64,000 bases of DNA from Mangifera indica. Its lineage: Eukaryota; Streptophyta; Magnoliopsida; Sapindales; Anacardiaceae. The translations under genes were made by a program, and so were the position numbers. Shown piece after piece: positions 1,391 through 48,370 of this stretch. The notes under the pieces were generated by a model that did not search any database, was not told the DNA's origin, and saw nothing but the letters and a program-made list of their open reading frames with translations. Position 1 is the first letter of the stretch. The number at the start of each line of letters is the position of its first letter. The stretch is taken from the NCBI RefSeq assembly GCF_011075055.1, contig NC_058155.1:620001-684000 (forward strand), read 5' to 3'.

Positions 1391-3304
1391 TTCTTTTTAT
1401 CTTATCATAATTGATTAGAAAATATTGCAAAGAAAAATTAATTTTTATTAGTATGTCATATATATATGATTTTAAACTCTTTTATTGCATAATCATATCA
1501 GCTCCCACTATTTTATTCGAATCTCACACTCCCTTAGATAGGATCAAAAATTCCGTTAGATTAAATTTCTTAGTGGAGAATCGAATTCTTATTAAACGTA
1601 ATTAACCTCACATAATAGAAATCATGGTTAATTAAATTTAATAAGTAGGAAACTCTTTCCATTTATATTCCTATATAAGGCTCGATTCGTTTTCCATGCC
1701 TTTCGCTCTGGATAGCTCACATAATAGAAATCTTGACATCCTCAACTAGTTAAATCAAAACTATCACGCTTCCTCAAAACGACATTTTCATCATGTCCTC
1801 ACATAATAGAATTCTTGGTCATAATGAAAATAATCACTCCAAAACAAGATAAATTTAATTCTATAACATAAATTCTACAATTTTCACATAATAGAAATTT
1901 TTGGATATTAAATTATATGTTATAGAATTTAATTATCCCATGATGGGAGGCATAGATTTAATAATTTTAATTAGAGAGATTTAGGCTTAACTTATTTTTA
2001 ATTAAGTTTAATTAAGCATGACATACATACATCTAATATATGCATAATTTAAAACTTAGTAGGATGATCATAAGGTTTTCGAAATTACAACCTAATGACA
2101 AACTATTTACCTAGGTCTATGTCTTCATTTGGATCACCATTCAGATCACCTTCAAGTCCTCATCTAACCATTCCAATTACATTTGAAACTTAGGCATGCA
2201 AACCCAATAAAATAAAAACAAACCTAAACAAATGGGATGAGATTATTTAATACAAACCCCTTAATCAAAAGAATATTACAACCTAATTATTAAAATTTTG
2301 AAAGAAAATAACAAATTACACACATGATCATCTTTTAATCATTCATCTATTCAACATTCACATTAATATTTAATAATTTCAGTTTAAATGGCATGATGCA
2401 TATTATTTAAATATTGATAATATTTATTTTAAATAACATTTATTTAACACTAGACCATGACTACTTTCATATTTAATCAACATTAATTGTTAGTTAACCT
2501 TGTGCACCTTCATTAACTTATGCACTCAATCACATTAATACAAGTTGATACTTATACACATTATCTCATCCAACTAATGCACTTAATTACATTAATGCAA
2601 GTTGATTCTTCTACACAATCTTTCATTCAACTAAAATGAACAAAATCATGCACATCATCTCATGGATCATACACATATATTACCATTCAAAACAACATTC
2701 ACATACTTTCACCATGCATCATATCCTTTTAGATTACATGTAATTACATTAATCATACACATCATAATCTTTACCCAAGTGTCTTAATCAACATTCAAAC
2801 ATCATTTAGCATTTCCAAATGTGAACTTGAAAAATCTAGAATTTTTTATGAACATTTCAGCATGTATATGCAAATGTATTAACTTATCTCCATACATCAA
2901 ACTTTCCTATGTATATACCATACATGCATGCCCTTAATCATGTTTTTTATGTACAACACACAAAATTAATAGAAACTTTTCAATGTATATCATCATATAC
3001 ATCTAGCCAACATGCATCAATAAGAATTTCAGGATTTAAATTTCAATTCTCAAGCCAAAAAACACATATATGTCTAAATCAAGCACATATACATGTATCC
3101 CATGAACACTTCATCATGTACATGCCATATATTACATGTTCTTCATCTTAAAATCACTAGAACGTGAAGAGAAAAATAAAAATCAAGCCAAGACAATCTA
3201 GCAGAGACATTCAAAAGGAGAACAGAAGCATATATATGGCATCAATACATACTTTTATGCATTTTAAACACATATTTGGCTTTGAAAGACATACAAGGAG
3301 TTGT
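1391..3304 (-). other. Untranslated leader of E1
   Basis: About 1.9 kb separates the primer site from the gag start at 1390. It aligns with the E2 leader (17241-19160). The part near the LTR has imperfect ~57-bp repeats (about 2500-2640, motif ACATTAATGCAAGTTGAT); the part near gag has the four-hairpin array (1588-1934). No reading frame is kept between E1 and E2 here: the frame open in E2 has several stops in E1, so I treat it as non-coding. Confidence 0.75.
1588..1934 (-). other. Four-hairpin leader array of E1
   Basis: Four copies of a loop motif (plus strand CACATAATAGAA; sense TTCTATTATGTG) start at 1609, 1718, 1800 and 1885. Three are enclosed by clear inverted repeats: 1588-1607 with 1626-1645, 1784-1798 with 1817-1831, and 1852-1873 with 1911-1934. 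The copy at 1718 has a weaker stem. Loops are 18, 18 and about 37 nt. Spacing and loop sizes match E2 and family A while stem sequences differ. Confidence 0.75.
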
Positions 3305-3320
3305 ACTAGAACTGATACCA
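3305..3320 (-). other. Primer-binding site of E1
   Basis: Two bases after the LTR end the minus strand reads TGGTATCAGTTCTAGT. TGGTATCA matches the complement of the initiator-Met tRNA 3' end used by most plant copia elements; later bases have diverged. This fixes the LTR orientation and shows that the leader and gag lie to the left. Confidence 0.8.
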
Positions 3321-9335: not shown

Positions 9336-12316
9336 GTTAATCATCCATTCAAGAAACATCAAATGATGATATGTGACCATCATTGTTTCTATTGCAATAG
9401 AACATTCATTGATACAATTTGTTCATTCAGTTTCCAAAGGTTAACTAACCTTTCCTCTATTAAATTTAACAAGGTAAAATCACTAGAGTATGCAATTAGA
9501 CTGTTCGCTGAGATCGTGACTCATTGAAGCACTTTTTTGGAACTAATAGTACTAAATCAATGATGCTAAAAGTAAATTTTACGATCTAATATTCATTGCA
9601 TTTTGAATTCCTCATACTCTACTTTCAACATAGAATTGATTCAACATATGTATAATCTGTCCTTTTGAATTGATATTCATTATATTCAACTTGATTTGTC
9701 TTATGTTTCATCCTTCAAGACCTCAAGAACTATCTATATTCCTTTTAAGGAAATCAAGGATATTTTCTAATGTGTTGTCCAACGACGCCTATTTGGACAA
9801 AGGTGATATTTCTAAAAGATTAAGATATTAACTTTGGTTGTATATCATGATATTCATGATCTTTCTGTTATATAGCACTAATAAAAATCTAATCATCTTT
9901 ATTTCCCAATTTATGTGTTCAATGACACATAATCTAAGAGAGGCATGTATCATTATGACAAAAGAGAGTTTTTCAAATTCTTATTTGCTAAATCCCTTCA
10001 ACCTTCGTTTATTATAAGCACTCCAAATTAAATTCAGTAGTCTATACAATCTATAACAATAAATCAAGTGAGGATATGAACTACTTAGTTTAAGTTCTTT
10101 TACAAAGGATTATTTGGTTACCCAAGTCTTATTAAACCAGTTACAAATTTGGCATTTAATTCTAATATGTTTATCATTGTACAAATATATAGTGTTAAAA
10201 TTGTCATTGCACTCCTATTGGCTTTTGTATACAAATTTCATATTCATCTTAGTAAAAACAAAAGATTTTATGGGTTTATTTGTACGAACATTTCTAGATT
10301 CTAATGTTCATATGAGTTCCTAAATAGAACTCATCAACTTGCATACCTGACCAACTCATTTTCTTGGTCAATACCATTGGTTATGTTATTGTCATAACCA
10401 TTCTAGGTGTTATCCATAGGAGTTGCTCTTGACAATTAATGTCAAATTTTTAATGATATGCAGTAACTATAAGTGCATCTAGAATTTAACGACAGTTGTA
10501 GGTCTCAGATTTTAACATCATAAATGATTAGTGTGTTTATCAAAAGTTTTGAGAATTTTAATTCTTATAAACTTATAATGCACCTCATCTTTCCTACATG
10601 ATTCTATATACTTAGGCTAATTACTTGTTTCTTTCTAAGAGTAAGTAATTTTCATTATGATGTTCAATCATACATATTGGCACATAATTTATTTTATGTC
10701 TATCTTTCTTGTGAATTAGAACTCGATTAAGTTCTATTATCCTCCCACTTGATTTTTAGAGAATGATTATGAAAGAATCTTCCAAAATAGATTTTGAAAC
10801 CTATTTGGTACTTGGAAGAGCAATATTTTTAAATTTCCTTTAAAATATCACACAAGATAATCTATTTAACATATGGTTCGACTGACTTAAGTTAATTACT
10901 TAATATTAGTGTTACTACCATTGTTAAATAAATCAGTGGACTTAAATCCAACAGGTACAACACATATAAAATATGTTATACTCATAGACATAAAAGTAGG
11001 TTACAATCATTAAGGTGTTACCATAGAATATTTAGCTGGTATTAAAACTCTCACTACATCTCAGACATTAAATTGGATTGTCTATCTTACGAATTCACCT
11101 TTTTGGTAAACCCAAGTGATTAAATACATATGTTAAGAAATTCGTTTTTTATTTTTAAATTCCTTGAATTTTTTCAAAGTATTTAGATTCGTATTTCCAA
11201 AATCATATTCATTGGAATGGCCAATAAATAAAATGAAATTAAAAATTTATTTTGTTCAACACAAATTGCTAATTCTCTTTGTTTAGATGAAATTCAACAG
11301 TAGAGTGATGCTTCAATGAAAACAGCAAAGGGTTGACATACTCATCTTTGTCTAAAAGACATAACTAGTATCTGTCATTCAATAATAATTGAATGAATCA
11401 AAATTCTAGTCATGATTCAGTCTTTTGTGCCAAATTATTGGTCCAAATTAATTTATACAATTAAGAATTCTTGAAATAATCATAGTAATAAATCCCTCAA
11501 AAGTTTTATTTCTCAAAATGTTACAACTAGTTATAGAATGAATACAAAAGTCTTACAACTAATGTGGCATATAAGTGCCATATTTCTAACTTGTAGGTCC
11601 ACATTTTCTTTTGGCTAACATCATACTATACCTCGATTTCTTCACATCCAACAAATGTGAGAATTTAAATCTCATGTTAAATAGTTCAAAATTTCAAGAA
11701 AAAGTTCAATTCTCAATCTTACCTAAAGTTGAAGACTCAGTCTTCCTTATTTTGTTAGCTAAAAAGGTTTTGTAGCATTTGCTTCAGTGGCTAGATTTAC
11801 TATATCAAAAGTAAATTACCTTACTTTTGCTAACTGAGCCCTTATGAAAGTTTAGTATGCTCTGAAGTACTAACTGAGATTCAGAATTCAGCTAGGCATT
11901 AATCTTACTTCTTTCTTCCTCACTTTTCAAGCTAGCTTTGTCTTGTTTAGCCATCCTTATCAAACCTTCAATAGACTCTCTCTTGTTATCCTTTAGAAAG
12001 TCCATAATGTACTTAATATAAGATTCAGGTAAAAAAAAGACAACAAGGTTAAAGACCATGTTATTCGTCATACGTCAGTCCAAAGTTTTGGCCTCTCAAT
12101 CAATTTAATTATATTAAACAAAATTCATGAATAATCACTCAATAATTTAATATAGTTTATGTTGTATATGATACTCAACAAATCATAGAACAACATGATT
12201 ACAAATCATCTTTATCAATTTTAACAATTTTGATTAATCCAATTACATGCAATCAACATAGAAAATCAATCAAAACAAACAACAAATATATATTTTCATA
12301 AAAATATGCTAAATGG
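9336..12316 (-). pseudogene. Degraded interior of element D
   Basis: About 3 kb where gag-pol should be. Only a gag segment (11878-12058) and a leader (12060-12310, alignable with 22700-22966) can be recognised. Near 9340-9400 the sequence still resembles the RNase H 3' flank of the C element (TAGAAACA...). I could not place protease, integrase or RT. A polypurine-like string (AAGTGGGAGGATAATAG, antisense near 10750) is not followed by an LTR. Confidence 0.45.
11878..12058 (-). pseudogene. gag: Gag fragment of element D
   Basis: One minus-strand frame reads LPESYIKYIMDFLKDNKR followed by ESIEGLIRMAKQDKASLKSE. This is the copia Gag pattern in which a LLxSLPxSY segment precedes the helix of the UBN2-type Gag domain. 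The upstream part of gag is missing, since the leader begins only ~250 bp away. Confidence 0.6.
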
Positions 12317-14038
12317 TGGCTCCGGTTTTCAAAGAGCCAACAACTGGCAATGTAGCGAAATTTAAAATTTTCAAATCAAACAATCCCAAAAACCTTAACC
12401 AGGATACCCGTTTTAGACGTACATTCATGAACATGCAAAACACATATAGGGTGTTTTAGATTCTATACCTATGTTAATGGTTCTTTCAAATCATCACGTG
12501 GCCTAAGACTGAATGTTATCTAAGAGGTGATACCTTGGTATCCACACAAAATTGAACACGAGAGAAGTAATCTAGGAGAAAAAGCTACTAAGGCTCTTCG
12601 GCTGGAATTATGTGTTCGTGGGAGGAGAGAAAACCCAAAAAACTTACGGTTACGATTTTCTTTTTGTATATGTATATATCTTTTTTATTTTAATGCAAGC
12701 TTAATTTATGTGTAGTTGTCTAAGCTCCGCAAGAATTTGAACCATCCCCAGTACGTTCTACACATATACGCACAACTAGCATGTAAACATACATAACTAA
12801 CATATTTCAAGCCTTGCATTAGTGGCACCATAAGCGTGTCACCTAGTACTACTTTAAGGCTTGCACAAGTGGACAATGTTTTGTCCAACCATGCAATGTC
12901 TTTTATTACTCATGGTGTAGCCACCTTGGTCAAAGTGTGGTCAATAGGATTCTACAACTTAAATAAGCAAACCTAGTATTTCCAAGATTTTTCTCTCTCT
13001 TCCTAAATACCAAGATTATCACTAATTAATCCTTCGCTCTAGGATCAACCCCTATATGTGTGAGACTTATAAGTTTCTATCAAACTGGTAGTGTTTAGAT
13101 TATGACTGAATTTAGACATAGACCAAGATCAGCCTTTAGCTAAACATCATAGCCACGTAAACAATAAAATGTTGGCAGACATCTTTTAAGCTTTTAAAAC
13201 ATCATAGCTATGTACAATTTAATCCTTTTGTCAAACAATATCTCACGAGGTTGAAACATAAAAAGTGTTTATCTCAATAGTTCCTAAGTGTGAACTGATA
13301 TACATTAATGACTAACATGGATTAGACTACACTCTCATCTCACTGTGGCCACAGATTCAAATTGCCATAGATGTCATTTAGTATTCTTCTGTGAGATATC
13401 TTCTCATGTGCTCAAGAGTGACGAATCTTTCATTGATTAACTATAACCTCTATGTATCTTATGATATAGCTTATTACTACCTTTATAATTACCTCAATTA
13501 TAATGACATATTAGATAACGTCAAACCATATCGATCCTTATATGAGACGATCTGGTGACCTCAAGTCAAAGGATCACTTGCTTCTAAGGTCTTTAGATGA
13601 TTTATTTCATAGACACTAAAATAATTATTCATATAGATATCCTCTTGTCAGATTAGTCTGATAAACAATCTATAACACATACCTATGTGTTACACCAAGG
13701 TGTCTATAATAGCTTCGAAACATGAGAACTGTCGCCACTTATAGCAGAGTTGATCAATAGTATGATAATCTCATTATCATTGCACGTGCCCTTATTCATT
13801 GTAATATCAAGATTACAAATATTTCTAAAGTGGCCATTAAATGCATACATAAGGTTTAAATAATTAGTTGTGTGATTTCCTTGTCATAGTTCTACTATTC
13901 TAAGGGTATGTTATTCGTACTATCATATAAATAGTCAACAGATGAATTGAATAACAATCAATCCTTTTATTAATTATTAATATAAAATTACATCCATAAA
14001 TTTCAAATTCAATTGGCTTTACGATACCTACCCTAACA
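12317..14038 (-). repeat. 5' LTR of element D (1722 bp)
   Basis: On the minus strand it starts TGTTAGGGTAGGTATCG at 14038 and aligns along its length with the C LTR at 35403-37122, including AATTAATAAAAGGATTGATT, the GACAGTTCTCATG region near 13720, and the terminal ~40 bp. The primer site expected after the LTR end is destroyed here, unlike at 22950 and 35393. Confidence 0.72.
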
Positions 14039-17228: not shown

Positions 17229-17240
17229 TGGTATTAGAGC
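17229..17240 (+). other. Primer-binding site of E2
   Basis: TGGTATTAGAGC, one mismatch from the TGGTATCAGAGC complement of the initiator-Met tRNA 3' end, two bases after the LTR. Confidence 0.82.
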
Positions 17241-18145
17241 TAGAACATCTCCTTGTTTGTCTTTTTTGAAGCTAAATATGGGTTTAAAATCCATAAAATT
17301 ATGTGTTGATATCATATATATGCATGCATGTTCTAATTTTGCCTTGAAATCAAGATTTCCAAGCATGTTCTCCCCTTGAATGTCTTGGCTAGATTGTCTT
17401 GGCTCGGTTTTTATTTTTCGCTTCATGTTCTAGTGATTTTAAGATGAAGAAGATGTAATATATGGCAGCTACATGATGAAGTGTTCATGGGATACATTTG
17501 TGCTTGATTTAGATATGGATGTGCTTTTTGGCTTGAGAATTGAAATTGAAATTTTGGAATTTTTATTGATGCATGTTAGTTGGATGTATATGATGATATA
17601 CATTGAAAATTTTATGTTCATTTTGTGTATGGTACATAAAATGCATGAATTAAGGACATACAGGTATGGTATATGCATAGGAAAGTTTGATATATGGAGA
17701 TATGTTAATATATTTGCATATACATGTTGAAATGTTCATGAAAATTTCCTGATTTTTCTAGTTCACATTTAGATATGTTAAATGATATTTTAATGTTGAT
17801 TAAGACACTTGGGTAAAGATTATGATGTATGTGATTAATGTAATTATATATAATCTAAAAAAATATGATGCATGGTGAAAGTATATGCATGTTGTTTTGA
17901 ATGGTAATGGATGTGTATGAGCCATGAGATGATGTGCATGATTTTGTTTACTTTAGTTGAATGAAAGATTGTGTACAAGAATCAACTTACATTAATGTGA
18001 TTAGATGCATTAGCTGAATGAGACATTGTGTATAAGTATCAACTTACATTAATATGATTGAGTGTATGGGTTGATAGAAATGCATAAAGTCAACTAACAT
18101 TTAATGTTGATTAAATGTGAAAGTTGCCATGGTTTAGTGTTAGGT

Positions 18146-18199
18146 AAATGTTACCTAAAATAAATATTGTAAATGTTACCTAAAATAAATATTGTAAAT
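18146..18199 (+). repeat. 26-bp tandem duplication in the E2 leader
   Basis: GTTACCTAAAATAAATATT preceded by TAAAT occurs twice in direct succession. It is local and not seen in E1, so it is a recent slippage-type duplication. Confidence 0.7.
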
Positions 18200-18610
18200 A
18201 CTTAAATTATTAAATGTTAGTGTGAATGTTGGATAGATGGATAATTAAGGGATGATCATGGATTGTAGTGTTCTTTTGATTAAAGGGTTTGTATTTAATA
18301 ACCCTGTCCCATTTATTTAAGTTTGTTTTTATTTTATCAAGCCTACATGCCTAAGTTTCAAATGTAATTGGAGCGGTTGGATGAGGACCCGAAGACGATA
18401 TAGATGGTGATCCAAATGAAAACATAGACCTAGGTGAATAGTTTGCTATTAGTTGTAATTTTGAAAATCCCATGATTATCCCACCATGTTTTAAATTATG
18501 CAGATATGAGATGTATATATATCATGCTTAATTGAACTTAATTAAAATTAAGTTAAACTTAAATCTCCCAAATTAAAATTAGTAAATCTATGTCTCCCAT
18601 CATAAGATAA

Positions 18611-18955
18611 TTAAATTCTATAACATAAATTTTAATATCTCAAGATTTCTATTACGTGAGGGATATGAAATTTATGTCATGGAATTAAATTTATCTTGTT
18701 CTTGAGTAATTATTTTTATCATGACCAAGAATTCTACTATGTAAGGACATGAGGAAAATATCATTTCAAGAAAACGTGATGCTTTGGATTTAACTAGCCA
18801 AGGATGCTAAGATTTCTGGTATGTAAAGTATCCAAAACAAAGGGCATGGAAAATGAATTGAGCCTTATGTAAATATATAAATGGAAAGGGTTTCCTACTT
18901 ATTCAATTTAATTAATCAAAATTTCTATTATGTGAGGTTAGTTATGTTTAACAAG
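18611..18955 (+). other. Four-hairpin leader array of E2
   Basis: Loop motif copies start at 18647, 18732, 18814 and 18923 (TTCTATTACGTG, TTCTACTATGTA, TTCTGGTATGTA, TTCTATTATGTG). Enclosing stems: 18611-18632 with 18668-18689; 18712-18726 with 18745-18759; 18798-18807 with 18828-18835; 18898-18917 with 18936-18955. Loops are 35, 18, about 20 and 18 nt. Spacing of 85, 82 and 109 mirrors E1 (85, 82, 109 in sense order). The last hairpin ends ~205 nt before the gag start. Confidence 0.78.
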
Positions 18956-19160
18956 AATTCGATTCCACATTAAGAAATTTAATCTAACAGAATTTTTAGA
19001 TCCTATCTAAGAGAGTGCGGGATTTAAATAAAATAGTAGGAGCTACTGAGATTATGCAATAAAAGGGGGTGTGTGTATATTTATATATATACGAGACACT
19101 AATAAATAATTAAATTTTCTTTACAATATTTTCTAATTGATTGAGATAAGATAAAAAGAA

Positions 19161-19915
19161 ATGGCCAATAATGTCTTGATATGAATTTTGGATAACAATA
19201 TATTGATTGAGTTGAACTTTAAAGATAGTTTAAGAAATTTGAGAATTGTTCTTACCTTTGAAAAGATTTTGTATGTATTGGAAGCATTTATTCCACTTGA
19301 CTTGGCTTCGGATGCCACAGATGATGAAAAAAACTTTTCAAAGCCTGGTAAGATCATAATCTGAGAGCCTGAAGTTGCATGCTAGCTTTAATGAATGGAG
19401 AGTTTCAAATAAAGCATGAAAACATATAGAGTGCGTACGATATACTCGTGGCCTTACTAGAGTTGTATGGCGATAGTTTTCGCAAAGAGACTAAGGGAGG
19501 GAATGCCTCCAGATGACATTATCATTGCAATGATAAATATTTTGGAGTAGCTAAATGTCTATGAGGTTGTGATTCCCCACAAAGTCAAGGTGAACTTGAT
19601 TCTCCAATCTCTCCTGATCAGTTATAAGTAATTTATAACAAAATACAATTTGAATAGAATTGAAAGCACACTCTTAGAGCTTCTGAATAAGATTCAAGAA
19701 TTTTATAAGCAAGAAAAGAAAGCAAGGGAAGTTAACATTGCCTCCATGAGTGGAGTAAAGAAGAAACACAAACAACCTCGGAAAGGTCCAAAAGTTGGAC
19801 CAAAGAAAAAGAATTTTAAGAAAGTCCAACCCAATATAAACAAGGCTAAGGCAAAAGGGTAGTGCTTCCACTACAACAAGGATGAACATTGGAAAAGGAA
19901 TTGTCCTCTATGCAT
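19161..19915 (+). pseudogene. gag: E2 gag remnant
   Basis: ATG at 19161 begins a copia Gag (NILIELNFKDSLRNLRIVL) with an early stop after MANNVLI and a frameshift near 19335. Later Gag appears at 19650-19862 (IESTLLELLNKIQEFYKQEK, then a lysine-rich stretch), a stop at 19860, and the zinc knuckle CFHYNKDEHWKRNC at about 19863, in which the second cysteine is tyrosine. RNA binding by the knuckle would be impaired. Confidence 0.85.
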
Positions 19916-22949: not shown

Positions 22950-22966
22950 GATATCTCTGATACCAC

Positions 22967-24050
22967 TGTTGGGTTTTCAGGGTACCAATAACCAACAACA
23001 TAATGAAATTTAAAAATTTTAAAACATGCAACCCCAACAACCCTAAACAGGATACCAATTTTAGACATATAATCATAAACATACAAAACACACATAGGTT
23101 GTTTTAGATTTTATACCTATGCTGGTGGCTTCTTCAAATATTTATATGACTTGATATTGAATGTTGTCTAACCCTCATAAGGCAATGCCTTGGTATCCAT
23201 GCAAAACACAAACATATAAGAAGCAATCCAAGAAGAAGGTTGCTAGGGCTTTTTTACTAGATTATTTATGTTCACAGGAAAATGAGAGAAAAACAGAAAA
23301 CTTATAGCTAGGCTTTCTGCTATGTAATGTTCTTATTATTCTTTAATTCTTACACATGTTTTAAATATATATAGGTGTCCGAGTAAAGCAAGGATTCCAT
23401 CCAAACCCGACACCCTTAACACACATGCATGACTAGCATGCAAACGTGCACAACCAATATGTTTCATAACATGCACAAGTGGCACATAAGTGTATCGCAT
23501 GATATAAGCTTTAACATTGCACATTTGGAGAAAAATTTGGTCCAGTCGTGCAATGCTTAATATATTTTACATGGTACTAGCTGGCACCATGCACACCAAA
23601 TTTGACTTGGTAAAAGCATGGTCAACCAATTCTTTCTTTCTTTAAACACCAAAATTATCATCAAATAATCTCAATCTCAAAATTTGAATCAGCTCTTATA
23701 TACGTATGACCCAAAAGTTCTCTATCAAACTAACAGTGTCTAAATTCAAGTAGAATTCAAACACAAACCAAGATTGGCTTCTAACAAAACATCATGGCCA
23801 CTCGGACGATAACATGTTAGTTGACATCTTTTATACTTTTACAGCATCAAAATTACATGCAATTCAATTTTTTCATCAACCAATATCTCTTGAGGCTAAG
23901 ACACAAAAATGTGTCCATCTTAATCATTCTTCATTATGAATTGATACACATCAATGACTAACATGGATTAGGTCATAACCTTATCCCACTATGGCTGCAG
24001 GTATAAGCAATCATGGATGTCATTCAGTATTCTCATGTGAGATATCTTCC
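22967..24050 (-). repeat. Truncated family C LTR (3' portion)
   Basis: On the plus strand it begins TGTTGGGTTTTCAGGG, the inverted C LTR terminus, and is colinear with 35403-36485 until GAGATATCTTCC, where it switches to family E LTR sequence (TGGCTAGAGTATAAT). About 640 bp of its 5' part are missing. The minus-strand primer site TGGTATCAGAGATATC lies at 22965-22950, so it was a 5' LTR. A TATA-like TATATATATTTAAAA (antisense) lies near 23370. Confidence 0.8.
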
Positions 24051-24757
24051 TGGCTAGAGTATAATAGATGTCATTTCATATAAGAAACCATATTGGTCAT
24101 GTAATTTTTGTATAAGAAGACAAATGATGATCAAGATAGGATCTGTTGACTTAAAAGGTATTGGGTTTTAAATATCTATTAATTTGATCTGTATCCAAGT
24201 TCTAAAGTGAATATCGATAAATATTAAAAATTAAAATCTCTGGCTAGAGTATAATGTAATTCATACAAAGAATGTTCGTAATGACATGTTTTAAATATTT
24301 AAATTGATGATTCGTAAAAAATCTAAATTAGGGCTTTGACAATCCATGAGTCTAAAATCGATCTAGATTGGACAATGGAAAGATATTACCTATACGAAAC
24401 ATATGATTAGAGATATTAGGTTCAATGGAGTATTTCTTCACTATGATTTAGGGGCTATAACACATTGTTAGATATTTACCATAGTCGTTGAGTTTTCGGA
24501 TTCACTTTCAGATCATCCAAAAAAAGATTCACAACTACGCCACGATGAACCTAAAGGGTCACACTAATAAACCAAGCTTTCATAAGGAAGAATTAATTAT
24601 CCCAAGATGGCTAACACCTTTCAAAGAATAATGAAAATCATATAAAATATTATATAGGTGACAAAAAAAGCATTTTAAAAGTTATGATGTTAATGAGATG
24701 AAATTAACGTGGCTAAGGTATATATTTGATATACATGAATGACAAGGCTTCAAATTA
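24051..24757 (+). repeat. Family E LTR fragment
   Basis: Colinear with E2 LTR positions ~16200-16900 (AAGACAAATGATGATCAAG, CCAAGATGGCTAACACC). Its first 16 bases (TGGCTAGAGTATAATA) belong further along the LTR, so the left join is rearranged. The end of the LTR and the primer site are deleted: sequence jumps at ~24757 to a point equal to 17307 in the E2 leader. Confidence 0.75.
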
Positions 24758-25137
24758 TGAATTTGTTGATATCATATATATGCATGCATGTTCTAATTTT
24801 GCCTTGAAATCAAGATTTCCAAGCATGTTCTCCCCTTGAATGTCTTGGCTAGATTGTTTTGGCTCAGTTTTTATTTTTCCCTTCATGTTCTAGTGATTTT
24901 AAGATGAAGAACATGTAATGAATGGCATGTACATGATGAAGTGTTCATGGGATACATTTATGTGTGCTTGATTTAGACATGCATGTGCTTTTTGGCTTGA
25001 GAATTGAAATTGAAATTTTGGAATTTTTATTGACGTATGTTAGTTGGATGTATATGATGATATACATTGAAAATTTTATGTTCATTTTGTGTATTGTACA
25101 TAAAATGCATGAATTAAGGACATACGTGTATGGTATA
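24758..25137 (+). other. Family E leader fragment, left flank of the A insertion
   Basis: Matches E2 17307-17668 (GTTGATATCATATATATGCA through GGTATGGTATA). It is interrupted at 25137 by the family A element; the continuation (TGCATAGGAAAGTTTG) resumes at 34552. GGTATA at 25132-25137 and 34546-34551 forms the target-site duplication. Confidence 0.8.
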
Positions 25138-26759
25138 TGTAGGATTTTGGCAAGAAAATTAAAATTTTTAGATCATGTTCACATCATATATAACAATAGT
25201 AATATAAAATTTACATGTTGTTTTAAGAAATAAAGCATAGAAACATGTAAACTACCTTGTACCTTGTAATTTGATTTGAAGTTAGAAAGCTTGAATCACT
25301 AAAATAAGTGATCTCTTGACTTGCACCCTTCAAGGAAGAAAAATGGAAGCCTTTCCTGGCAAAAGGAAGAAGAAGAAGAAAAATTTCTTTATTTTCTTCT
25401 TTTTTCTCCCATTTATTAAACTTAAACTTGATATTTATCAAGTTAAATCATGTGTCTATTTCCCATTAGTTGATAATTAAGAGTAAATTATAATTTGACA
25501 CATGTTGAATAATTTATGCCCAAAATTATTCATTCAACTTTCTAAACAATTTAAAAAGTGCAAAATGACAATTTTGCCCCCTTTTTGAATCTTATTCGAA
25601 AAGCACCATTTTTATCCGTGGAAAGTGCTAGCCAACCATGGATAAATATTTTCAACTTCATAACACTATTTTCTTCCTTGAAATATGGGTGTGATCTTCA
25701 AGATTCATAGTGATGTAGCTGTGGGCCCCATATCAGATGATACGTTTTATTATATCACTATATAACCTAAAACTATCGTTAATCGATATACTTCATTTTT
25801 CGTTACAAAACGAAGCTCCCACTGATCATGTGGTGTCATCTAGCAATGTCCCATGACCTCTACATCACAATGAAGTACAAGCTTCATATAATACCAAGTG
25901 AACCTTTCTTACTCACACTTACCATGTAGTCCAATCCTTTCGTCGTTACATCCCGATTGAACTTAGATTCATGGAATGTCAAAATCCAATATTTAATCTT
26001 TTTGAATATCAAGTCATACCTCAAAACGTGTCATATCGAAACTCTTTTCATGTGGACTTTTATCTATACTGGCCAGTATCTTAGATTTTCATGTTTCTCG
26101 ATATTTGTATGGGAACTCGGAGCAGTCGAGCTGAAGGATCCTTGTATAATCATCACTTGTCCTCTCACTCAAGTAACATATAATCAAAGCGGCTTCTAAA
26201 TGAGACATGATTAGTCTCGTGATACACACTATATAAACCATACATTTCGAAACAAAACACAACCGTGATATCTCAAGTCAAAAGATCTATACACTAGTAT
26301 ATTTATGATGTATCATTGATTAGATATTAATGCCCATGTGATCATCGCTCAGTGGTTACTTTCAATAAATAATATAATATAATATAATAACCTTTGATCA
26401 GTTCTCTAACCATCAAATGGTTCTATTGTTGACCTATGTGTATATCCACCATGTCTAATATCATCCACTGATATACTGTGGTGATATAGCACACACCCAC
26501 TATGTAATACTATTGCCCAAACAGATTGCCTATGCAGGGAATGATTTGATGATGTTTATTAAAACTCATCGGGACCTTTCATATGTCATATTCATGTAGC
26601 TAATATGGATGTAATATACAACTATAACATAGATATAAAAATGACACAGAAAACATATGAAGTATGACGGAACCCCTTTTTTTTTATTAATAATGTATAT
26701 GCAAGATATACAACCCTTGAAACCAACAAAGCGATTGGTTTTTAGGGTATATTCTAACA
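25138..26759 (-). repeat. 3' LTR of family A, copy 1 (1622 bp)
   Basis: On the minus strand it opens TGTTAGAATATACCC and closes GCCAAAATCCTACA. It pairs with the inverted LTR at 31902-33530; about 20 mismatches are visible in the first ~230 bp, with fewer elsewhere, so the insertion is not recent. It contains the palindrome ACTTGATAAATATCAAGT and a CTTCTTCTTC tract in the transcribed end. Confidence 0.9.
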
Positions 26760-26780
26760 ATAACTCCCACTTGCACTAAA
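26760..26780 (-). other. Polypurine tract of family A, copy 1
   Basis: The minus strand reads TTTAGTGCAAGTGGGAGTTA immediately before TGTTAG of the LTR. It primes plus-strand synthesis. Confidence 0.8.
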
Positions 26781-26814
26781 ACCAATCGCTGTAGTACCTA
26801 ATGCCCATCCTCTC

Positions 26815-27292
26815 TAGATGTTAGTCTAACAGTCTTTGTGTCAATGCTTTAGTTAGTGGGTCTACAAGATTGTCTGTCGAAACAATCTTCTGAATAATAA
26901 TATCTCTAGCTCTAACGAATTCTCTCAAGATGTGATATTTTTGCTGAACATACCTTGACCTTTGATGCGCTCTTGGTTCCTTTGTTTGTGCAATGACACT
27001 AGTATTGTCACAGAATATAATTATTGGTTGACTCATTGAGGAACCATGCCCAACTTTGTGGCGAATTTATGTATCTAAATGGCCTTTTTCGTAGCTTTTG
27101 AAATGGCAATATACTCAGCTTCTGTATAAGAGTTTGTAGTAGTCGATTGTTTGACACTTTTTCAATGACTGCTCCTTTATTACAGAAAAAAACAAATGCA
27201 AATGTAGACTTTCTATCGTCTACATCTGACTGAAAATTAGAATCTGAGTATCCTTTAAGCATTAACTCTGAACCCTTATAACCCAGTATCAA
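26815..27292 (-). pseudogene. Family A RNase H, copy 1
   Basis: C-terminal domain of copia pol. YSDSNFQSDVDDRKSTFAFV carries the first RNase H Asp; the tail reads IIIFCDNTSVIAQTKEPRAH through DNLVDPLTKAL. Copy 1 lacks one base near 27037 and one near 27166 that copy 2 keeps. These shift the frame and destroy the Glu-containing SYTEAEYIA segment, which copy 2 still encodes in frame apart from one stop. Confidence 0.88.
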
Positions 27293-27299
27293 CTCTTTG

Positions 27300-28310
27300 G
27301 TACTCCTTAAATATTTCAGGATAGCTTTTACCGTTGTCCAGTGTCTTTCTTTAGGATTTGACTAATATTTGCTTACTGTACTAACTGCAAAAGCAATGTC
27401 TAGTCGTGTACATAACATGGCATACATGAGACTACCTACTGCCGAAGCATATGGCACCTTACACATTCGCTGTCGTTCTTCATCATTCTTTAGATACATC
27501 TTTTGATAGATATGTTCCATGAGGAAATGGTAAAAGACCTCTCTTAGAGTCTTGCATGTGAAAGCGTTTCAACACTTTCTCTATGTACAACTTTTGAGAT
27601 AAACCTATTAATCCTTTCATTCTATCTCTATAGATGCAAATACTTAGAATATAGGTTGCTTCTCCTGGATCCTTCATGAAGAAAGATTTTGCTAGTCATA
27701 GTTTAACTTCAGTTATAGTGTCATTAACATTTCTAATTAATAATATGTCATCTATATAGAAGACTAGAAAAATGACAATTTTATCCCTATCTAATTTATA
27801 GACACACAACTCGTCCAGATTTTTTATGAAACCAAATACTTGGATCATTTCATCAAATTGGATATTTCAGCTTCTTAAAGCTTGTTTCAATCCATATATA
27901 AATCGATATGGTTTGCACACTTTATGCCTCTCGGTAGTGGATACAAAACCGATTGGCTACTCCATATAGATATTTTCCTTAATGTACCCATTGAAAAAAG
28001 TAGTTTTAACATCCATTTGCCATATCTCATAATCATAGTATGTTGTGATGGCTAATCGGATTCTGATGGATTTAAGCATTGTGACTAGTGAAAAAGTCTC
28101 CTCATAATCTAATCCTCATTTTTTAGTATAACCTTTAGCTACCAATCGAGCTTTATAAGTTTTAACTTTTCTATCCTTGCCAATTTTCCTTTTAAAGATC
28201 TATTTACATATGATCGAAACTATTCAATCAGGTGGATCAACGAGTATCCATACTTGATTGACATTCATAGATTCAATTTCTGAATTCATTGCCTCTAGTT
28301 ATCTACTGGA
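27300..28310 (-). pseudogene. Family A reverse transcriptase, copy 1
   Basis: Copia RT from LEAMNSEIESMNVNQVWILV (28310) through KTYKARLVAKGYTKK, WQMDVKTTFFNGYIKENIYM and the catalytic FYIDDILL (about 27735-27760) to LYIEKVLKRFHMQDSKRGLL (27483-27677). The YIDD box is intact, but at least seven stops interrupt the frame, several at Trp/Gln positions as expected from C-to-T decay of methylated DNA. Confidence 0.9.
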
Positions 28311-28394
28311 GTCAATATCCAATATTGTCTCTTGGTAAGTTTTTCGATCCTCTAGATGCTCAGTTTTTTTCATTAGAAGCGATTCAAAATTCTC

Positions 28395-29374
28395 TTATGT
28401 TAAAAATCCATATCTCTCAAGAGGTTGAGACACTCTAGCAGACTTTCTTACTTGATCCGTTGTAATTGGTACAAGTGATTGTATACTAGAAGGATTTACC
28501 TGAATAGGCTCAGTTATTGGCTTTCCAGACTCTTCTTTGAGCACAATTTTCCTTGTTGCACCACCTTCCTCTAAGAACTCTTTCTTGAGAAAACGTGCAT
28601 TTCTACTGACCATAATCCTTTGATTAGAGTGAAAGTAGAAATAATATCCTAAACTTTCTTTTGGATACCCGATGAATCGACCATTTTCTACTTGGGACTC
28701 TAATTTATCAGTTCTAACCACTTTGACAAATGTTAGACATCCCCAGATTTTTAGGTAGTTTACACTTAGAAGTCTGTCATACTATAATTCGTATAGTGTC
28801 TTTCGAATGGACTTTAATGATGTTTTATTCAGCACATGTAGTGCTAGTTGAAGAGCATATCCCTATAAATAAACTGGCAAGTCAGTAAAACTCATCATAG
28901 ATCGTATCATATCTAACAAAGTACGATTTTTCTATTCAGACACACCATTATGTTCTGGTGTGAATGGTAGAGTCAACTGAGATAGTATTCCTTTGCCTCT
29001 TAAGAACTCTTGGAATTTTATACTCAAGTATTGACCTCCACGATCTAAACGCAAAGCTTTAATATTCTTTCTAGTATGGTTTTCTACTTCCTTTTAGAAC
29101 TCTCTAAACTTTTTAAAAGCTTCAGATTTATATTTCATCAAATACAAATACTCGTATCGAGAATAATCATCGGTAAAGATAATGAAGTATGAAAAACCTC
29201 TTTGGGTTATTCATTAAAGGGGCTACACACATTAGTGTGTATCAATTCTAATATATTTTTGGCTCACTCCCCTTTATTCTTAAATAGAAGCTTGATCATT
29301 TTTCCTCGAAGACAAAATTCACAAGTAGGATAGGGTTCTAAACCCAATGAACTTAAAAGTCCATTTTCTCCTAA
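28395..29374 (-). pseudogene. Family A integrase, copy 1
   Basis: Zinc segment (PTCEFCLRGKMIKL) near 29325, then core. The first catalytic Asp is lost (HTNVCSPFNE near 29235); LRLDRGGQYLSIKF keeps the second Asp; HNGVSE*KNRTLLDM keeps the Glu beside a stop. The C-terminal part is open at 28395-28721 (GRFIGYPKESLGYYFYFHSN). Dead as an enzyme. Confidence 0.88.
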
Positions 29375-29890
29375 TTATCGAATCTGATCCTTTCCAATAT
29401 GACCAAATCTGTGATGCCATAGAACTATTGGATTTATGTGTTCTCTTGTTCTTTTAGACGATATGGAAGACATGGCGTTATGTAAATCAAGTTCTACCAT
29501 ATACAAACCATTTGTATTGATAACATTTCCTATTAATCTATTTCCAAAATAAATTAGACATTCATTTCCATTAAATGTAAACTGATAACTATTTTTACAC
29601 AAAACTGGAATGGAGATGATATTCCTAGTGGCATTAGCAAAATACAAAGTTATTACTTGCCTAGTAGGCAACTGTTCACTACATACACCTATAGCTTTTA
29701 CGGAAACTCGTGTCCCATCAGCCAGTCTCAGTGTGATCTTATCATGTCTTAAGGTAGAACTATTCTACAAATACTGTAAGCAAGCACAAACATGTGAAGT
29801 TGCAGCAGAATCTAATATCCAAGAATCAATGTTTGAATTAACATTTAATTCAAAATCAATTACATAACAATGATATGTACCTGTTTTGCT
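29375..29890 (-). pseudogene. Family A protease and gag-pre-integrase domain, copy 1
   Basis: Protease active site WILDSAATSHVC at about 29800-29830 (DSA rather than DSG). An open 98-codon stretch (29375-29671) follows, with ATRNIISIPVLCKNSYQF and the histidine motif VLWHHRFGHIGKDQIR typical of the copia pre-integrase domain. A stop precedes it near 29770. Confidence 0.88.
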
Positions 29891-30776
29891 TTTTCTCAGA
29901 TCATCAAGGTATAAAGGGCAGTTCCTCTTCCAATAACCCTCTTGGTTGCAATAAAAGCAATTGTTCTTCTCTTGCTTCTTTTCTTTCTATGGAACAGATG
30001 GTCGTGGAGGTTGAGAACAAGATAGCCCGATGCTAGAAGGCTTGGTAGTGGTTTTCTTAAAACTTTTTCTTTGTACTTTTGGTCCACCAGATCCCATCTG
30101 TGAACCTCTCCTCTAAGGCTTTTGTGTTTGCCTCTTGTGGCAAAGGTAGCTAGCAACTTAGCTAGTGTTTTCCTTTTCTTCTCATTATTGTAAAATTCTT
30201 GGATATCATTGAGAAGCTCAGGAAGAGTGCGCTCAATCTTATTGAGATTATAATTTGTAATAAATGGCTTAAAAGTTGGAGAGAGTGAATGGAGAATCAA
30301 ATTCACCCAAACATTATGCGACAAATCTGTACCCATAATTTGTAACTTCCCAGTCTTATTAATCATTTTAATAACATGATCATCTAGGGAAACGCCGTCC
30401 TTAAGTCGCATGTTGAATAGTGAATCATCAAATTATATTCGTTCACTTGAGCATTTTCACTATATAATTCTCTTAAAGTAGTGATAATTTCATACGCACT
30501 CTGCACATTCTCAAACCGAGTTTGAAGTTTAAAGTTCATTGATGCCAACATATAACTATGAACTCGTAAGTCAGCATCCACCCATTCAGCATAAGCCCTT
30601 TACTCTTCTTCAGGGGCGTTAAGGTCCACTGCTGCTAGTAAAGGTGTCTCTAAGACATAAGCTAACTTTTCAAGATTGAGAACAATTGTCAGATTTCTCA
30701 GTCAATCTTTAAAATTGGGACAAATAAGCACATGAGAATCCATCAATTTCAGGAGTATATTGTTTGTCGTTGACAT
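29891..30776 (-). pseudogene. gag: Family A gag, copy 1
   Basis: ATG at 30776, with SHVLICPNFKD then a stop (Trp codon position) and LRNLTIVLNLEKLAYVLETP; SAYEIITTLRELYSENAQ at about 30450-30510; DGVSLDDHVIKMINKTGKLQ and NKIERTLPELLNDIQEFYNN at 30180-30400. A frameshift near 30415 splits the frame. The zinc knuckle (about 29920-29962) reads CFYCNQEGYWKRNC with Tyr for the zinc-binding His. Confidence 0.9.
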
Positions 30777-31901
30777 TTTGAGATTTTATATCACAAGAGA
30801 GAGTGTTGCAAGAAATAAAAAATTCATTAGTAATTACCGATAAACCTAATCTTATTAACTTTCACTATTTTATTCAAATCTTATACTTCCTCGACTGAAG
30901 ATTCAAAAAGTTCATTGGATCACTTTCTGGTAGGGAATCAAGTTCTTATCAAACTTGACAAACCGCATATAATAGATGTAAGTCCGTCAAACTCAATAAG
31001 TAGGAATCGATTTCCTTTTACATTCCAAATGCAAGCTATGATTCATGTGAGCCTCTAGCTTTGAGCACTACACACAATAGATCTAAACACTCTAAACTAG
31101 TCAAATTCAACCCATCGTGCTTTTCAGATATAATACCCCATCACTCCCAAACATAATAGAATCTAGGGAATGACAAAAATAGTACTCTAGACACCAATCG
31201 ATTAATTTTACGCCATATGGCATAGTATCTGTCACATAATAGAAATCTAGGATTTCCAACCTTATGACGTAACCCTAATCGACCCACAATGGAAGACTTG
31301 AATTTGATATTGAAAATTTGGGGAAGATTTTATTATTATTAATTAGGTTTAGTTTATATCTGGAGTAATCTAGTATGTATCTTTGGATACGTATTTGTTA
31401 CCCAAGACATGATACTAAACCATATTCTAACAATTTGTGCCATTGAAAACTTTTCTAATGTCCTAAATGGTATTGTATGAATATTTCATGTCTACAAGTT
31501 TTTGTTCTCTAAAGCACAAAACTATGTATTATATGCCATAAATAAATTACAAGATAATATAAAACATAAAACTTAGGCATGCTATTGAACACATATCAAC
31601 TATATTATTCAATAATCAAAAGAAATCATATTTTCATACAACTTAACATATCACATATCTAAAATGTACATTAGGTTGATCTTGCATATAAGAGATCCAA
31701 TATCTTATAACTTAATCCTAGGCTAGCAAACTTGAGTTCTTATTTTTGTATCTAAGACAACAAACATATTCAATATGTTAAGTCCATTTCAATCTAGCAT
31801 ACATAATGTTAAGCATTTAGATGCATGATGTTTAGCATGTCATAATGTCTCATATATAACATACACATGTCACACATTAATGCTATCACATATACCTATC
31901 T
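30777..31901 (-). other. gag-proximal leader half of family A, copy 1
   Basis: About 1.1 kb between the gag start and the inverted LTR. It holds the hairpin array and then AT-rich DNA with repeated ATGTTTAGCAT / AACATATTCAA-like strings. It contains CATATACC at 31889-31896, an inverted copy of GGTATATG at the target site, which is the likely inversion point. Confidence 0.7.
30945..31281 (-). other. Four-hairpin leader array of family A, copy 1
   Basis: Motif copies near 30965, 31071, 31150 and 31233 (CATATAATAGAT, CACACAATAGAT, ACATAATAGAAT, CACATAATAGAA on the plus strand). Stems: 30945-30959 with 30986-31000; 31055-31066 with 31089-31100; 31141-31148 with 31166-31173; 31199-31220 with 31260-31281. 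Loops are 26, 22, 17 and 39 nt. The gag-distal hairpin again has the large loop. Stem sequences differ from family E but still pair. Confidence 0.78.
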
Positions 31902-33530
31902 TGTTAGAATATGTTTTAAAAACCAATCGCTTTGTTGGTTTCAAGGGTTGTATATCTTGCATATACATTATTAATTAAAAAAAAAAGTTATGTCATATTT
32001 CACATGTTTTCTGCATCACTTTTATATTTATGTTGTAGTTGTATATTACATCCATATTAACTACATGCATATAACATGTGAAAGGTCCTGATGAGTTTTA
32101 ATAAACGTCATCAAATCATTCCCTGCATAGGCAATCTGTTTGGGCAATAGTATTGCATACTGGGTGTGTGTTATATCACTACAGTATATCAGTGGATGAT
32201 ATTAGACATGGTGGATATACACATAGGTAAACAATAGAACCGTTTGATGATTAGAGAACTGATCAAAGGTTATTATATTATATTGTTTATCCAACGTGAC
32301 CGCTGAATGATGATCACATGGGCATTAATATGTAGTCATTGATACATCATAAATCATAATAATGTATAGATCCTTTGACTTGAGATATCACGATTGTGCT
32401 TCGTTCCGGAACGTATGGTTCATATAGTGTATATCACGAGGCTAATCATGTCTCGTTTAGAAGCCGCTTTGATCATACATTGCTTGAGTGAGAGGACAAG
32501 TGATGATCATATAGGGATCCGTCAGCTTGACTGCTCTTGAGTTCCTATACAAATATCGAGAAACATGAAAATCTAAGACACTAGCCAGTATAGATAAAAG
32601 TCCACATAAAAAGAGTTTCGATGTGGCACGTTTTGAGGTATGACTCAATATTCGAAAAGATTAAATATTGGATTTTGATATTCCATGAATTCAAGTTTAA
32701 TTGAGATGTTATGATGGAGGGATTGTACTACATGGTAAGTGTGAGTAAGAAGATTCACTTAGTATTATGTGAAGCTTGCACTTCATTGTGATGTAAGGGT
32801 CATGGGACATTGCTAGATGGCACCATATGATTAGTGGGAGCTTCGTTTTGTAGCAGAAAATGAAGTACATCGGTTAACAAAAGTTTTGGGTTATACAGTG
32901 ATATAATGAAACATATCGTTTAATATGGGGTCCACGACTACGTCATTATGAACCTTGAAGGTCATACCCATATTTCAAGGAAGAAAATAGTGTTATGGAG
33001 CTGAAAATATTTATCCGTGGTTGGTTAGCATTTTCCTCGGATAAAAACAGTCTTTTTCGAATAAGATTCGAAAAGGGGGCAAAATTGTCATTTTACACTT
33101 TTTAAATTGTTAAGAAAGTTGAATGAATAATTTTGGGCACAAATTATTCAACATGTGTCAAATTATAATCTACTGTTAATTATCAACCAATGAGAAATAG
33201 ACACATGATTTAACTTGATAAATATCAAGTTTAAGTTTAATAAATGGGAGAAAAAAGAAGAAAATAGAGAGATTTTTCTTCTTCTTCTTCTTCCTTTTGC
33301 CGAGAAAGGCTTCCATTTTTCTTCCTTTTCTTCCTTGAAGGGTGCAAGTCAAGAGATCACTTATTTTAGTGATTTAAGCTTCCTAACTTCAAATCAAATT
33401 ACAAGGAACAAGGTAGTTTACATATTTCTATGCTTTATTTCTTGAAACAACATGTAAATTTTATATTACCATTGTTACATATGATGTGAACATGATCTAA
33501 AAATTTTAATTTTCTTGCCAAAATCCTACA
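31902..33530 (+). repeat. 5' LTR of family A, copy 1, inverted (1629 bp)
   Basis: Plus strand opens TGTTAGAATATGTTTTAAAAACC and closes GCCAAAATCCTACA, followed by primer site AATGGTATCAAAGC. It is the second LTR of the A element but points away from gag. Any promoter activity would run rightward into family E sequence instead of into gag. CCAATGAG and ATAAATAT near 33186-33222 are candidate core promoter parts; this is weak. Confidence 0.88.
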
Positions 33531-33532
33531 AA

Positions 33533-33544
33533 TGGTATCAAAGC
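33533..33544 (+). other. Primer-binding site of family A, copy 1, inverted with the LTR
   Basis: TGGTATCAAAGC, one mismatch from the initiator-Met tRNA complement, two bases after the LTR. Confidence 0.85.
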
Positions 33545-34545
33545 AAGAGTTTGATCCTTGAATGACAAGAGCATGCCATATTTTTAGGTGTTTGGAAGTG
33601 TTAGTGATTAAAACCTAAGATATAAGTTTTGTTATGTTTGATTGGTTCAAACCAAGTGTACATATGTTATTAGGAATGTCTTAATAGCATTTGAGAAGCT
33701 TTAAATTGTTAAAATTGTGTTGGATAACTTTTGACATAATAAAAAAAAAACCTAATTTTAGAAATTTGGGTGTTTTTGAAATTAATGGTTTAATCATGAT
33801 TTATACATGATTGTCATGATATACACATGAATTTTAATCTTGACTTTACATAAGAATGTGTTTTTAAGAAACTTAGTTTGTGTGACTTGGCGAAGGGCAT
33901 GAACAAGTTGGCATGATTTCCATGTGTTTGGTTGATGGAAATAACATTCAATGTTGATTGAATTATTATTAATTCATTAAACTAGTGTTTGACTTGGTTT
34001 GATTGAGAATTGAATTCTTGATAGCTTGGATTGGATAAATTACATTATAAGTAACCATATTCATGCTTGAATAATTATTACATGGTGAGATGGTTTATGT
34101 TTGAGTGATGAATGATTCATATATATCATGATTTGGTGAAATGCTTGACACTTGTGAATTTGGCTCACATTAGGCATGTGTTATGTATTTATTTTACAAC
34201 TTATCATTCTAAAATCTATTCATGTTTAAGTATGAATTGAAACATGTTTAGTGAGATTTTGGTGAACTTGGTATGTGTTTTGGAAACATCAAGAGTTGGG
34301 GTTTCATGGTTGGTTTCAAGAAAAATGTAATATAAAATTTTGGTTTAATTACTTTGTATACTTGTTATGGTTTGATCTTGTAGACACCAAACGTTAGATG
34401 TGTTTATGTTTTAGCAAACTTGAACAAAGAGCATAAAGTATGGTAAATTATTTGTTAAGTTTACAAAATTACAAATTTAATTTCTAAGTCTGAATGTTTG
34501 ACTATGGTGTTACAAATATTAATATAGTGCCCACAATGTCATGTT
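33545..34545 (+). other. LTR-proximal leader half of family A, copy 1, inverted
   Basis: About 1 kb of leader with no coding motif. It ends ...ATGTCATGTT against GGTATATGCAT of the E leader. Added to the 1.1 kb on the other side of the LTR it gives the ~2.1 kb expected for the leader by comparison with E2 (1.9 kb). Confidence 0.7.
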
Positions 34546-35392
34546 GGTATATGCATAGGAAAGTTTGATGTATGGAGATATGTTAATATATTTGCATAGA
34601 TTTAAAAGTATTAAATCTATGTCTCCCATCATAAGATAATTAAATTCTATAACATAAATTTTAATATCCCAAGATCTCTATTATGTGAGGGATACGAAAT
34701 TTATGTCATGAAATTAAATTTATTTTGTTCTTGAGTGATTATTTTCATCATGACCAAGAATTCTACTATGTAAGGACATGAGGAAAATGTCATTTCAAGA
34801 AAGCGTGATGCTTTGGATTTAACTAGCAGAGGATGCTAAGATTTCTAGTATGTAAAGTATCCAAAGCAAAGGGCATGGAAATGAATTAAGCCTTATGTAG
34901 AGATATAAATGGAAAGGGTTTCCTACTTATTCAATTTAATTAATCAAAATTTCTATTATGTAAGGTTAGTTACGTTTAACAAGAATTCGATTCCACACTA
35001 ATAAATTTAATCTAACGGAATTTTTAGATCCTATCTAAGAGAGTGCGGGATTCAAATAAAATAATAGGAGCTAATGAGATTATGCAATAAAAGGGGGTGT
35101 GTGTATATTTATATATATACGAGACACTAATAAATAATTAAATTTTCTTTACAATACTTGCTAATCGATTGAGATAAGATAAAAAGAAATGGCCAATAAT
35201 GTCTTGATACGAATTTTGGATAACAATATATTGACTAAGTTGAACTTTAAAGACAGTTTAAGAAATTTGAGAATTGTTCTTACCTTTGAAAATGTTTTGT
35301 ATGTATTAGAAGTACTTACTTCACTTGACTTGGCTTCGGATGCCACAGATGATGAAAAGAAAGTTTTCGAAGCCTAGCAAGATGTAGAGTGT
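34546..35392 (+). pseudogene. gag: Family E leader and gag fragment, right flank of A, copy 1
   Basis: GGTATATGCATAGGAAAGTT to 34602 equals E2 17664-17720, then the sequence jumps to the equivalent of E2 18580 (ATCTATGTCTCCCATC), an ~860 bp deletion. The hairpin array is retained. A Gag N-terminus is open at 35189-35377 (NILTKLNFKDSLRNLRIVL) and stops at FEA, after which the sequence joins an inverted C LTR primer site. Confidence 0.82.
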
Positions 35393-35402
35393 GTGATACC
35401 AC

Positions 35403-37122: not shown

Positions 37123-37137
37123 ATTTAATTTGAAATA

Positions 37138-39725: not shown

Positions 39726-39779
39726 ATAACTCCCACTTGCACTAAAACCAATCGCTGTAGTACCTAATGCCCATCCTCT

Positions 39780-41278: not shown

Positions 41279-41362
41279 GTCAATATCCAATATTGTCTCT
41301 TGGTAAGTTTTTCGATCCTCTAGATGCTCAGTTTTTTTCATTAGAAGCGATTCAAAATTCTC

Positions 41363-43744: not shown

Positions 43745-43912
43745 TTTGAGATTTTATATCACAAGAGAGAGTGTTGCAAGAAATAAAAAATTCATTAGTA
43801 ATTACCGATAAACCTAATCTTATTAACTTTCACTATTTTATTCAAATCTTATACTTCCTCGACTGAAGATTCAAAAAGTTCATTGGATCACTTTCTGGTA
43901 GGGAATCAAGTT

Positions 43913-48360: not shown

Positions 48361-48370
48361 GTGATACCAC

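Follow-up and report, generated by a model that had tools for sequence, protein, structure and literature searches.

Within a 64,000-nt stretch of the Mangifera indica genome (the window), four leaders of Ty1/copia elements, designated E2, E1, A and F, carry an array of several stem-loops that share a loop motif, TTCTATTATGTGA, on stems of free sequence, the third hairpin (H3) being weak. Selection on sense-strand RNA structure has very probably acted on these leaders. Our confidence is not higher because the motif of H3 is not open and because double changes also occur outside the hairpins. On the likeliest reading of the sequences, the array would act in cis, as an RNA element within the genomic transcript of a group of plant Ty1/copia elements. 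The first-pass annotation had suggested an RNA element in E2. A conserved sense-strand element is upheld by the pairing held out in F, by covariation, by the pairing arms present in all four leaders and by the strand preference; H3 is the weak member of the array.

The four leaders and their arrays

The window consists of AT-rich DNA holding nested, decayed Ty1/copia elements. Comparison of the window with itself aligned A, on the minus strand, with E2, on the plus strand, over approximately 4.9 kb at 80% identity, and E1 corresponded to a third, fragmented copy. The F leader (31345–30776, minus strand) belongs to a clearly different family, with 57–62% identity to E2, E1 and A in the stem and other columns of the alignment and 71–75% in the 18-nt loop columns. 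The sample comes entirely from this 64-kb window and amounts to four leaders, in effect three; E1 and E2 are closely related and not independent.

The primer binding site of E2, TGGTATTAGAGC, which we take to match the 3' end of the initiator-Met tRNA, starts at position 17229 and the gag start codon at 19161, giving a leader of about 1.9 kb. These two positions suggest that the array-bearing leader is transcribed. The E2 array lies between primer binding site and gag, the placement of a Ty1/copia leader, and the distance of about 205 nt from the end of the array to the ATG agrees with that of the first-pass annotation. No primer binding site was found for F, the leader of which is broken upstream. 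The F gag piece is of the copia type: it matched Pfam Retrotran_gag_2 with 31.9 bits (cut-off 27), and TYA just over the cut-off. Eight proteins matched it, four of them labelled Mangifera indica and one labelled Pistacia vera, and the best three Mangifera matches showed 77–80% identity across 54–63% of the query. P0002, a Mangifera relative of the F gag, contains a CX2CX4HX4C zinc knuckle, as read from its sequence.

Several larger repeats were visible in the self-comparison. A tandem duplication of about 13 kb (12,988 nt, 99.7% identity) covers 24160–37143 and 37135–50111, and represents either a recent event or an assembly artefact. The second copy of the E1 array (47629–47941) lies inside this duplication, and the F array has a second copy 12,968 nt further along. 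An inverted, LTR-like repeat of 1.6 kb (25135–26760 and 31901–33533, 90% identity), with PBS-like sequence adjoining, lies directly against the E1 and F leaders at the points where they are broken. A further repeat family (64–91% identity) occupies 12116–14038, 22958–24051, 35394–37124 and 51614–53248; the open reading frames of at least 55 aa in one of its copies are short, with nothing obvious by eye.

Table 1. Positions in the window of the E2 leader features and of the hairpin arrays; p refers to the loop-anchored stem score.
Feature	Position	Strand	Remarks
E2 primer binding site	17229..17240	+	TGGTATTAGAGC; directly 3' of the 5' LTR, start of leader; pattern match
E2 H1	18604..18697	+	Loop 18642–18659; 8/30 pairs changed on both sides; p 0.0001; motif open
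E2 H2	18699..18772	+	Loop 18727–18744; p 0.0007; motif open
E2 H3 (weak)	18802..18833	+	7-bp core; loop 18809–18826; 3/7 pairs double-changed; p 0.094
E2 H4	18898..18955	+	Loop 18918–18935; 100% of cells paired; p 0.009; motif open
E2 gag start codon (decayed gag)	19161..19163	+	About 205 nt 3' of H4; read from sequence
E1 array	34633..34983	+	Hairpins 34633–34726, 34728–34801, 34831–34862, 34926–34983
A array	1588..1939	-	Hairpins 1846–1939, 1771–1844, 1710–1741, 1588–1645
F array (divergent family)	30945..31285	-	Hairpins 31195–31285, 31122–31193, 31063–31092, 30945–31000

A scan for TTCTATTATGTGA with up to three mismatches returned exactly four copies per leader stretch in all four cases (1916 nt for E2, 1930 nt for A, and the 1131 nt and 591 nt read of F and E1, respectively). 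In E2 they start at 18647, 18732, 18814 and 18923 on the plus strand, the very copies reported in the first-pass annotation with spacings of 85, 82 and 109 nt, and no other was found in the leader. The spacing was almost the same in E1 (85/82/108) and A (85/82/109) and slightly shorter in F (83/79/105). The four loop 13-mers of A are identical to each other and are exact copies of TTCTATTATGTGA. At up to one mismatch, WTTCTRNTAYGTRA occurred 23 times in the window versus 3.7±1.9 times in shuffled sequences, and none of 100 shuffles reached that number.

The stems were scored by anchoring the loops at the positions given by the E2/A alignment columns and comparing the scores with those of 10,000 random window positions. 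The Fisher p values were 1.5e-7 for E2, 1.6e-7 for E1, 6e-8 for A and 1.7e-8 for F. Taken alone, H3 reached p 0.005 in F and fell short of significance in the other three leaders (p 0.09–0.14); its core measures 7 bp in both E2 and E1. The initial claim that the motif sits four times inside the loop of an inverted repeat therefore holds for H1, H2 and H4, and less well for H3 (p 0.094 in E2, motif not open). The loop size of about 18 nt was likewise confirmed, and the 35-nt LTR-proximal loop proposed at first is unnecessary because a length of 18 nt fits every loop of E2 and E1. It also fits three of the four A loops; in A H1 the uppermost pairs are broken, which leaves a loop of about 26 nt. 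The F loops measure 16–18 nt in H2–H4 and about 21 nt in H1. The range of 8–22 paired nucleotides was exceeded, with stems of up to about 30 interrupted pairs (H1, 18604–18697). Stem sequences are unrelated between hairpins, as had been noted: 22 of 24 arm comparisons in E2 and A fell under the random 95% point (10/20), and the other two scored 10 and 11.

Some short sequences in and around the hairpins were shared between leaders. The block TTCCTACTTATT, between H3 and H4 (18892–18903 in E2), is identical in the four leaders and is overlapped by a small GGAAA/TTTCC hairpin. The block AATAAAATA, downstream of the hairpins (19027–19035 in E2), is also identical in all four. The 8-nt palindrome AGAATTCT is present in the H2 loop of A (1799–1816), E1 (34756–34773) and E2 (18727–18744), and absent from F2; it is a possible candidate for a kissing site in the A/E loops. 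The conserved downstream segment AATAAAATAG was considered as a long-range partner of the loops and rejected as unsupported: it shares first place for a single loop, that of E2 H2, and lies between rank 6 and rank 762 for the remaining 15. More generally, none of the 16 loop 18-mers examined pointed to a consistent long-range partner.

Pairing across leaders and strands

The four leaders were aligned with MAFFT and folded with RNAalifold, which predicted 134 pairs, 25 of them with a double change. We kept the 75 pairs that form the four hairpins without loop-internal pairs. Among these, 96.3% of cells were paired versus 91.2% in shuffles, and 16 pairs were changed on both sides versus 4.8±1.8, neither value being attained in 500 shuffles; when the structure was slid along the alignment the values fell to 39–48% and 1–3, respectively. 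The first-pass annotation would have been contradicted by an absence of covariation, and covariation was found, on four leaders from this window. The 59 pairs dropped contain the other nine double changes, which are thus not confined to the hairpins. Because the double changes extend beyond the hairpins, and because the structure had been chosen on the same alignment, a held-out test was made, in which stems were taken from one leader alone, with the loop position fixed, and scored in another leader.

From E2 to F, 63 of the 78 aligned positions were canonical, and sliding the stems lowered the share to 39–47%. Broken pairs numbered 15 where 24.8 were expected (p 0.008), and double changes 12 where 5.8 were expected (p 0.011). 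From F to A, 21 pairs were broken against 34.6 (p 0.002) and 18 were doubly changed against 9.5 (p 0.0045). The p values for broken pairs and double changes were 0.010 and 0.014 from E1 to F, 0.030 and 0.073 from A to F, 0.015 and 0.027 from F to E2, and 0.007 and 0.022 from F to E1. Between A and E the test was not significant in any of the three directions covered (broken-pair p 0.18, 0.27 and 0.38). The deep evidence is one split, A/E against F. Folding blind, without the loop constraint, gave a weaker result, the A/E consensus moving H3 and H4 into other pairs. The blind A/E folds held out in F gave p 0.17 and 0.036 for broken pairs and 0.046 and 0.079 for double changes, and the blind fold of F alone, scored in E2, E1 and A, gave 0.054, 0.029 and 0.011, and 0.031, 0.019 and 0.0016, respectively.

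Hairpins were also aligned to one another, 14 of the 16 being used (F1 and F4 were left out). Here 79.1% of cells were paired versus 53.3% in shuffles, and 42 cells carried a double change versus 17.1±2.9 (0/500 shuffles). Two other counts were no higher than in the shuffles, however: 9 pairs showed a double change (versus 7.9), and there were 21 further pair types (versus 20.0). Six loop columns were invariant, in the form TCTnnTnnGT.

In unconstrained partition-function folding of about 88 nt around each motif, 12 of the 16 motif copies were more open than their flanks, namely all 12 in H1, H2 and H4 and none of the four in H3. Set against the statement of the first-pass annotation that motif copies outside predicted loops in most relatives would refute an RNA element, the exceptions in these four leaders are the H3 copies only. 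In E2, H3 has competing folds and its motif is mostly paired. Since this openness fails for H3 alone, we regard three hairpins as robust and H3 as doubtful or in need of a partner. In single minimum free energy folds, the 13-mer was wholly unpaired in 2/16 cases and had at most four paired bases in 5/16.

The sense strand folded better than the antisense strand in each of the four arrays (-79.2/-59.9, -83.4/-71.7, -86.1/-59.8 and -101.1/-47.3 kcal/mol). With 60 column shuffles for each strand, the alifold z was -4.6 for sense and -3.5 for antisense; the sense alifold structure contained 92 pairs, 20 with double changes, and the antisense one 55 pairs, 10 with double changes. Hairpins acting on the antisense strand or at the DNA level were rejected on the four worse antisense folds, though the antisense z is -3.5. 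As the structure had been picked from the sense strand, the excess of G-U over A-C (51 to 3) is a biased figure. The 185 alignment columns downstream of the array showed no excess structure, with z -0.8 on either strand.

The pattern might also be explained without any selected element, by inverted repeats at the DNA level or by the easy folding of AT-rich sequence combined with shared descent. This explanation would be consistent with the double changes outside the hairpins (9/59 pairs), the closed H3, the weakness of blind folding, and the z of only -3.2 (plus strand; -2.1 on the minus strand) for the whole of E2 18600–18960. It is very unlikely, in view of the location of the motifs between pairing arms in 4/4 leaders (Fisher p 1.6e-7 to 1.7e-8), the held-out pairing in F and the sense preference. 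A small-RNA precursor was also set aside, as it would be expected to keep the stem and not the loop.

Relatives of the array and the possible role of the loops

Rfam gave no match above the gathering score in the window, and membership of a known family was not found. In the window, a model built from the 12 A/E hairpins recovered the hairpins it had been trained on together with the four duplicates of E1. Next came F1, matched through the loop alone (21.2 bits, E 0.045), a match of 17.6 bits at 22298 and, weakly, F2 (15.7 bits, E 0.8). With the filters off over 5.4 kb, F3 scored 9.2 bits, which is chance level, and F4 was absent. A sequence-only model (R3) found F1 at 17.1 bits and F2 weakly (7.2 bits, E 0.53), and missed F3 and F4. 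Pairing thus doubles the model score of F2 without making it significant. Another model (R1), with F2 and F3 included, found F1 at 21.0 bits and missed F4. No additional array was detected in the window by the covariance models.

The search was extended to public contigs with DNA patterns, by two scans of viral_contigs (34 and 16 stretches) and one of genome_contigs (24), giving 74 loci. Eight of them contained four motif-like 13-mers (up to three mismatches) within 400 nt. L001 and L033 were discarded as being without stems (scores 0 to 7.5). L008 (scores 5 to 17.5), in which an open frame of 123 aa lies within a stretch of 372 nt, was taken for a coding repeat; L016, L022, L027 and L030 contain the same repeated sequence. 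L029 (scores 7.5 to 27.5), where 432 nt include an open frame of 143 aa, was also taken for a coding repeat. Three protein-guided scans of viral_contigs yielded no relatives, and no relative of the array was found by the scans of viral_contigs and genome_contigs as a whole.

We propose the following model for the array. Four consecutive hairpins, three robust and a weaker H3, stand in a long leader about 170–205 nt before gag and would present one loop sequence (core UCUAUUAUGURA), the stem sequence being free and the pairing kept. The repeated loop may act as a repeated single-stranded site for a protein, and four such sites could provide avidity. The likeliest ligand is the Gag protein encoded by the element itself, which would bind by way of the zinc knuckle and so mark the full-length RNA for packaging into virus-like particles. 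Recognition by Gag is favoured because the array lies in the leader, because a Gag relative (P0002) carries a zinc knuckle and because viral packaging hairpins with a common loop exist. We tentatively put the array as a multivalent Gag-binding, or packaging, signal at a little under an even chance. Against it stands STNV-1, in which, according to the available text of PMC6475782, packaging in vivo did not track the AxxA motifs. A doubtful, although possible, extension is a modular multivalent packaging code, in which a near-fixed array of four hairpins would act by loop sequence alone while the stems drift and stay paired; related families would then share one Gag-RNA rule, possibly with cross-packaging.

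The loops themselves may be read in other ways, to which the differences between families are relevant. GTRA is found in 12/12 A/E loops and in only 1/4 F loops, in which the 5' half, TCTATT, is intact in all four cases and the 3' half is variable. Many host proteins bind short single-stranded motifs. The loops could conceivably be bound by a host RNA-binding protein that governs how the transcript is exported, stabilised or spliced, and their GURA end also looks like a 5' splice site, as the A/E loops would allow; this reading is rather unlikely given the single GTRA in F versus the four intact copies of TCTATT.

An AUG immediately followed by a stop occurs in 12 of the 16 loops (three in E2, four in each of E1 and A, one in F) rather than in every copy. 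These AUG-UGA or AUG-UAA frames could be minimal start-stop frames that stall or divert ribosomes, as described for AUGUAA in NIP5;1 in the available text of PMC11915504. Despite the presence of such frames in 11 of the 12 A/E loops, this explanation is most improbable, as only one of the four F loops has one, the leader contains about a hundred AUGs, and the conserved 5' half TCTATT would be left unexplained. Start-stop frames and 5' splice sites were both rejected on their loss in three of the four F loops.

There are 97 AUGs in the E2 leader (17245–19160) and 100 in the A leader (1391–3320), which makes plain scanning implausible. The array, close to gag, might accordingly control translation as part of an internal ribosome entry or shunting structure leading past the AUG-rich leader. 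However, both E2 and A have another AUG after the array and ahead of gag, so that ribosome entry at the array would not alone find gag, and splicing or a downstream transcript start are other possible routes. We consider a role in translation rather unlikely, and retain the Gag-binding array as the preferred model. A countable element with a named loop would offer a direct handle on Gag binding, packaging and translation, and the array could serve as a search model for elements with decayed proteins.

Comparison with known systems

Among the papers listed by a literature search on plant LTR retrotransposon leaders and packaging analogues, none describes such an array to judge by titles and abstract openings, which leaves its absence from print unproven. 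Nor did this search yield binding or packaging data for these elements. The AUGUAA and AUGUGA hexamers recall the AUG-stop of NIP5;1, also in a plant 5' leader (PMC11915504, available text); unlike those of NIP5;1, the mango hexamers sit in hairpin loops, and they are kept in one of the four F loops.

Among retrotransposons, BARE is also a plant Ty1/copia element with an untranslated leader, for which conserved dimerisation and packaging signals are cited (PMC3735527). It differs by its description: the available text of PMC3735527 has no occurrence of the word 'hairpin' and describes no loop array. The 5' region of yeast Ty1 is likewise a cis-acting RNA of a Ty1/copia element, and in Ty1 it is bound by Gag (PMC8396678). 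The available text of PMC8396678 places its packaging region, with PAL palindromes and a pseudoknot, near the 5' end, and mentions no array of hairpins with a single loop motif.

STNV (AxxA) and HBV (RGAG) possess, in the sources as available, dispersed hairpins with a common loop motif that are bound by the capsid protein and constitute packaging signals; for the AxxA loop motifs of STNV-1, a packaging-signal role in vivo is unsupported in the available text of PMC6475782. The mango array resembles these packaging stem-loops in that multiple hairpins on the packaged (sense) strand share a loop motif (PMC6475782, available text). It differs in belonging to a plant retrotransposon, in its loops, which measure about 18 nt and contain a core of some 12 nt, and in being compact, with four hairpins at near-fixed spacing in the leader.
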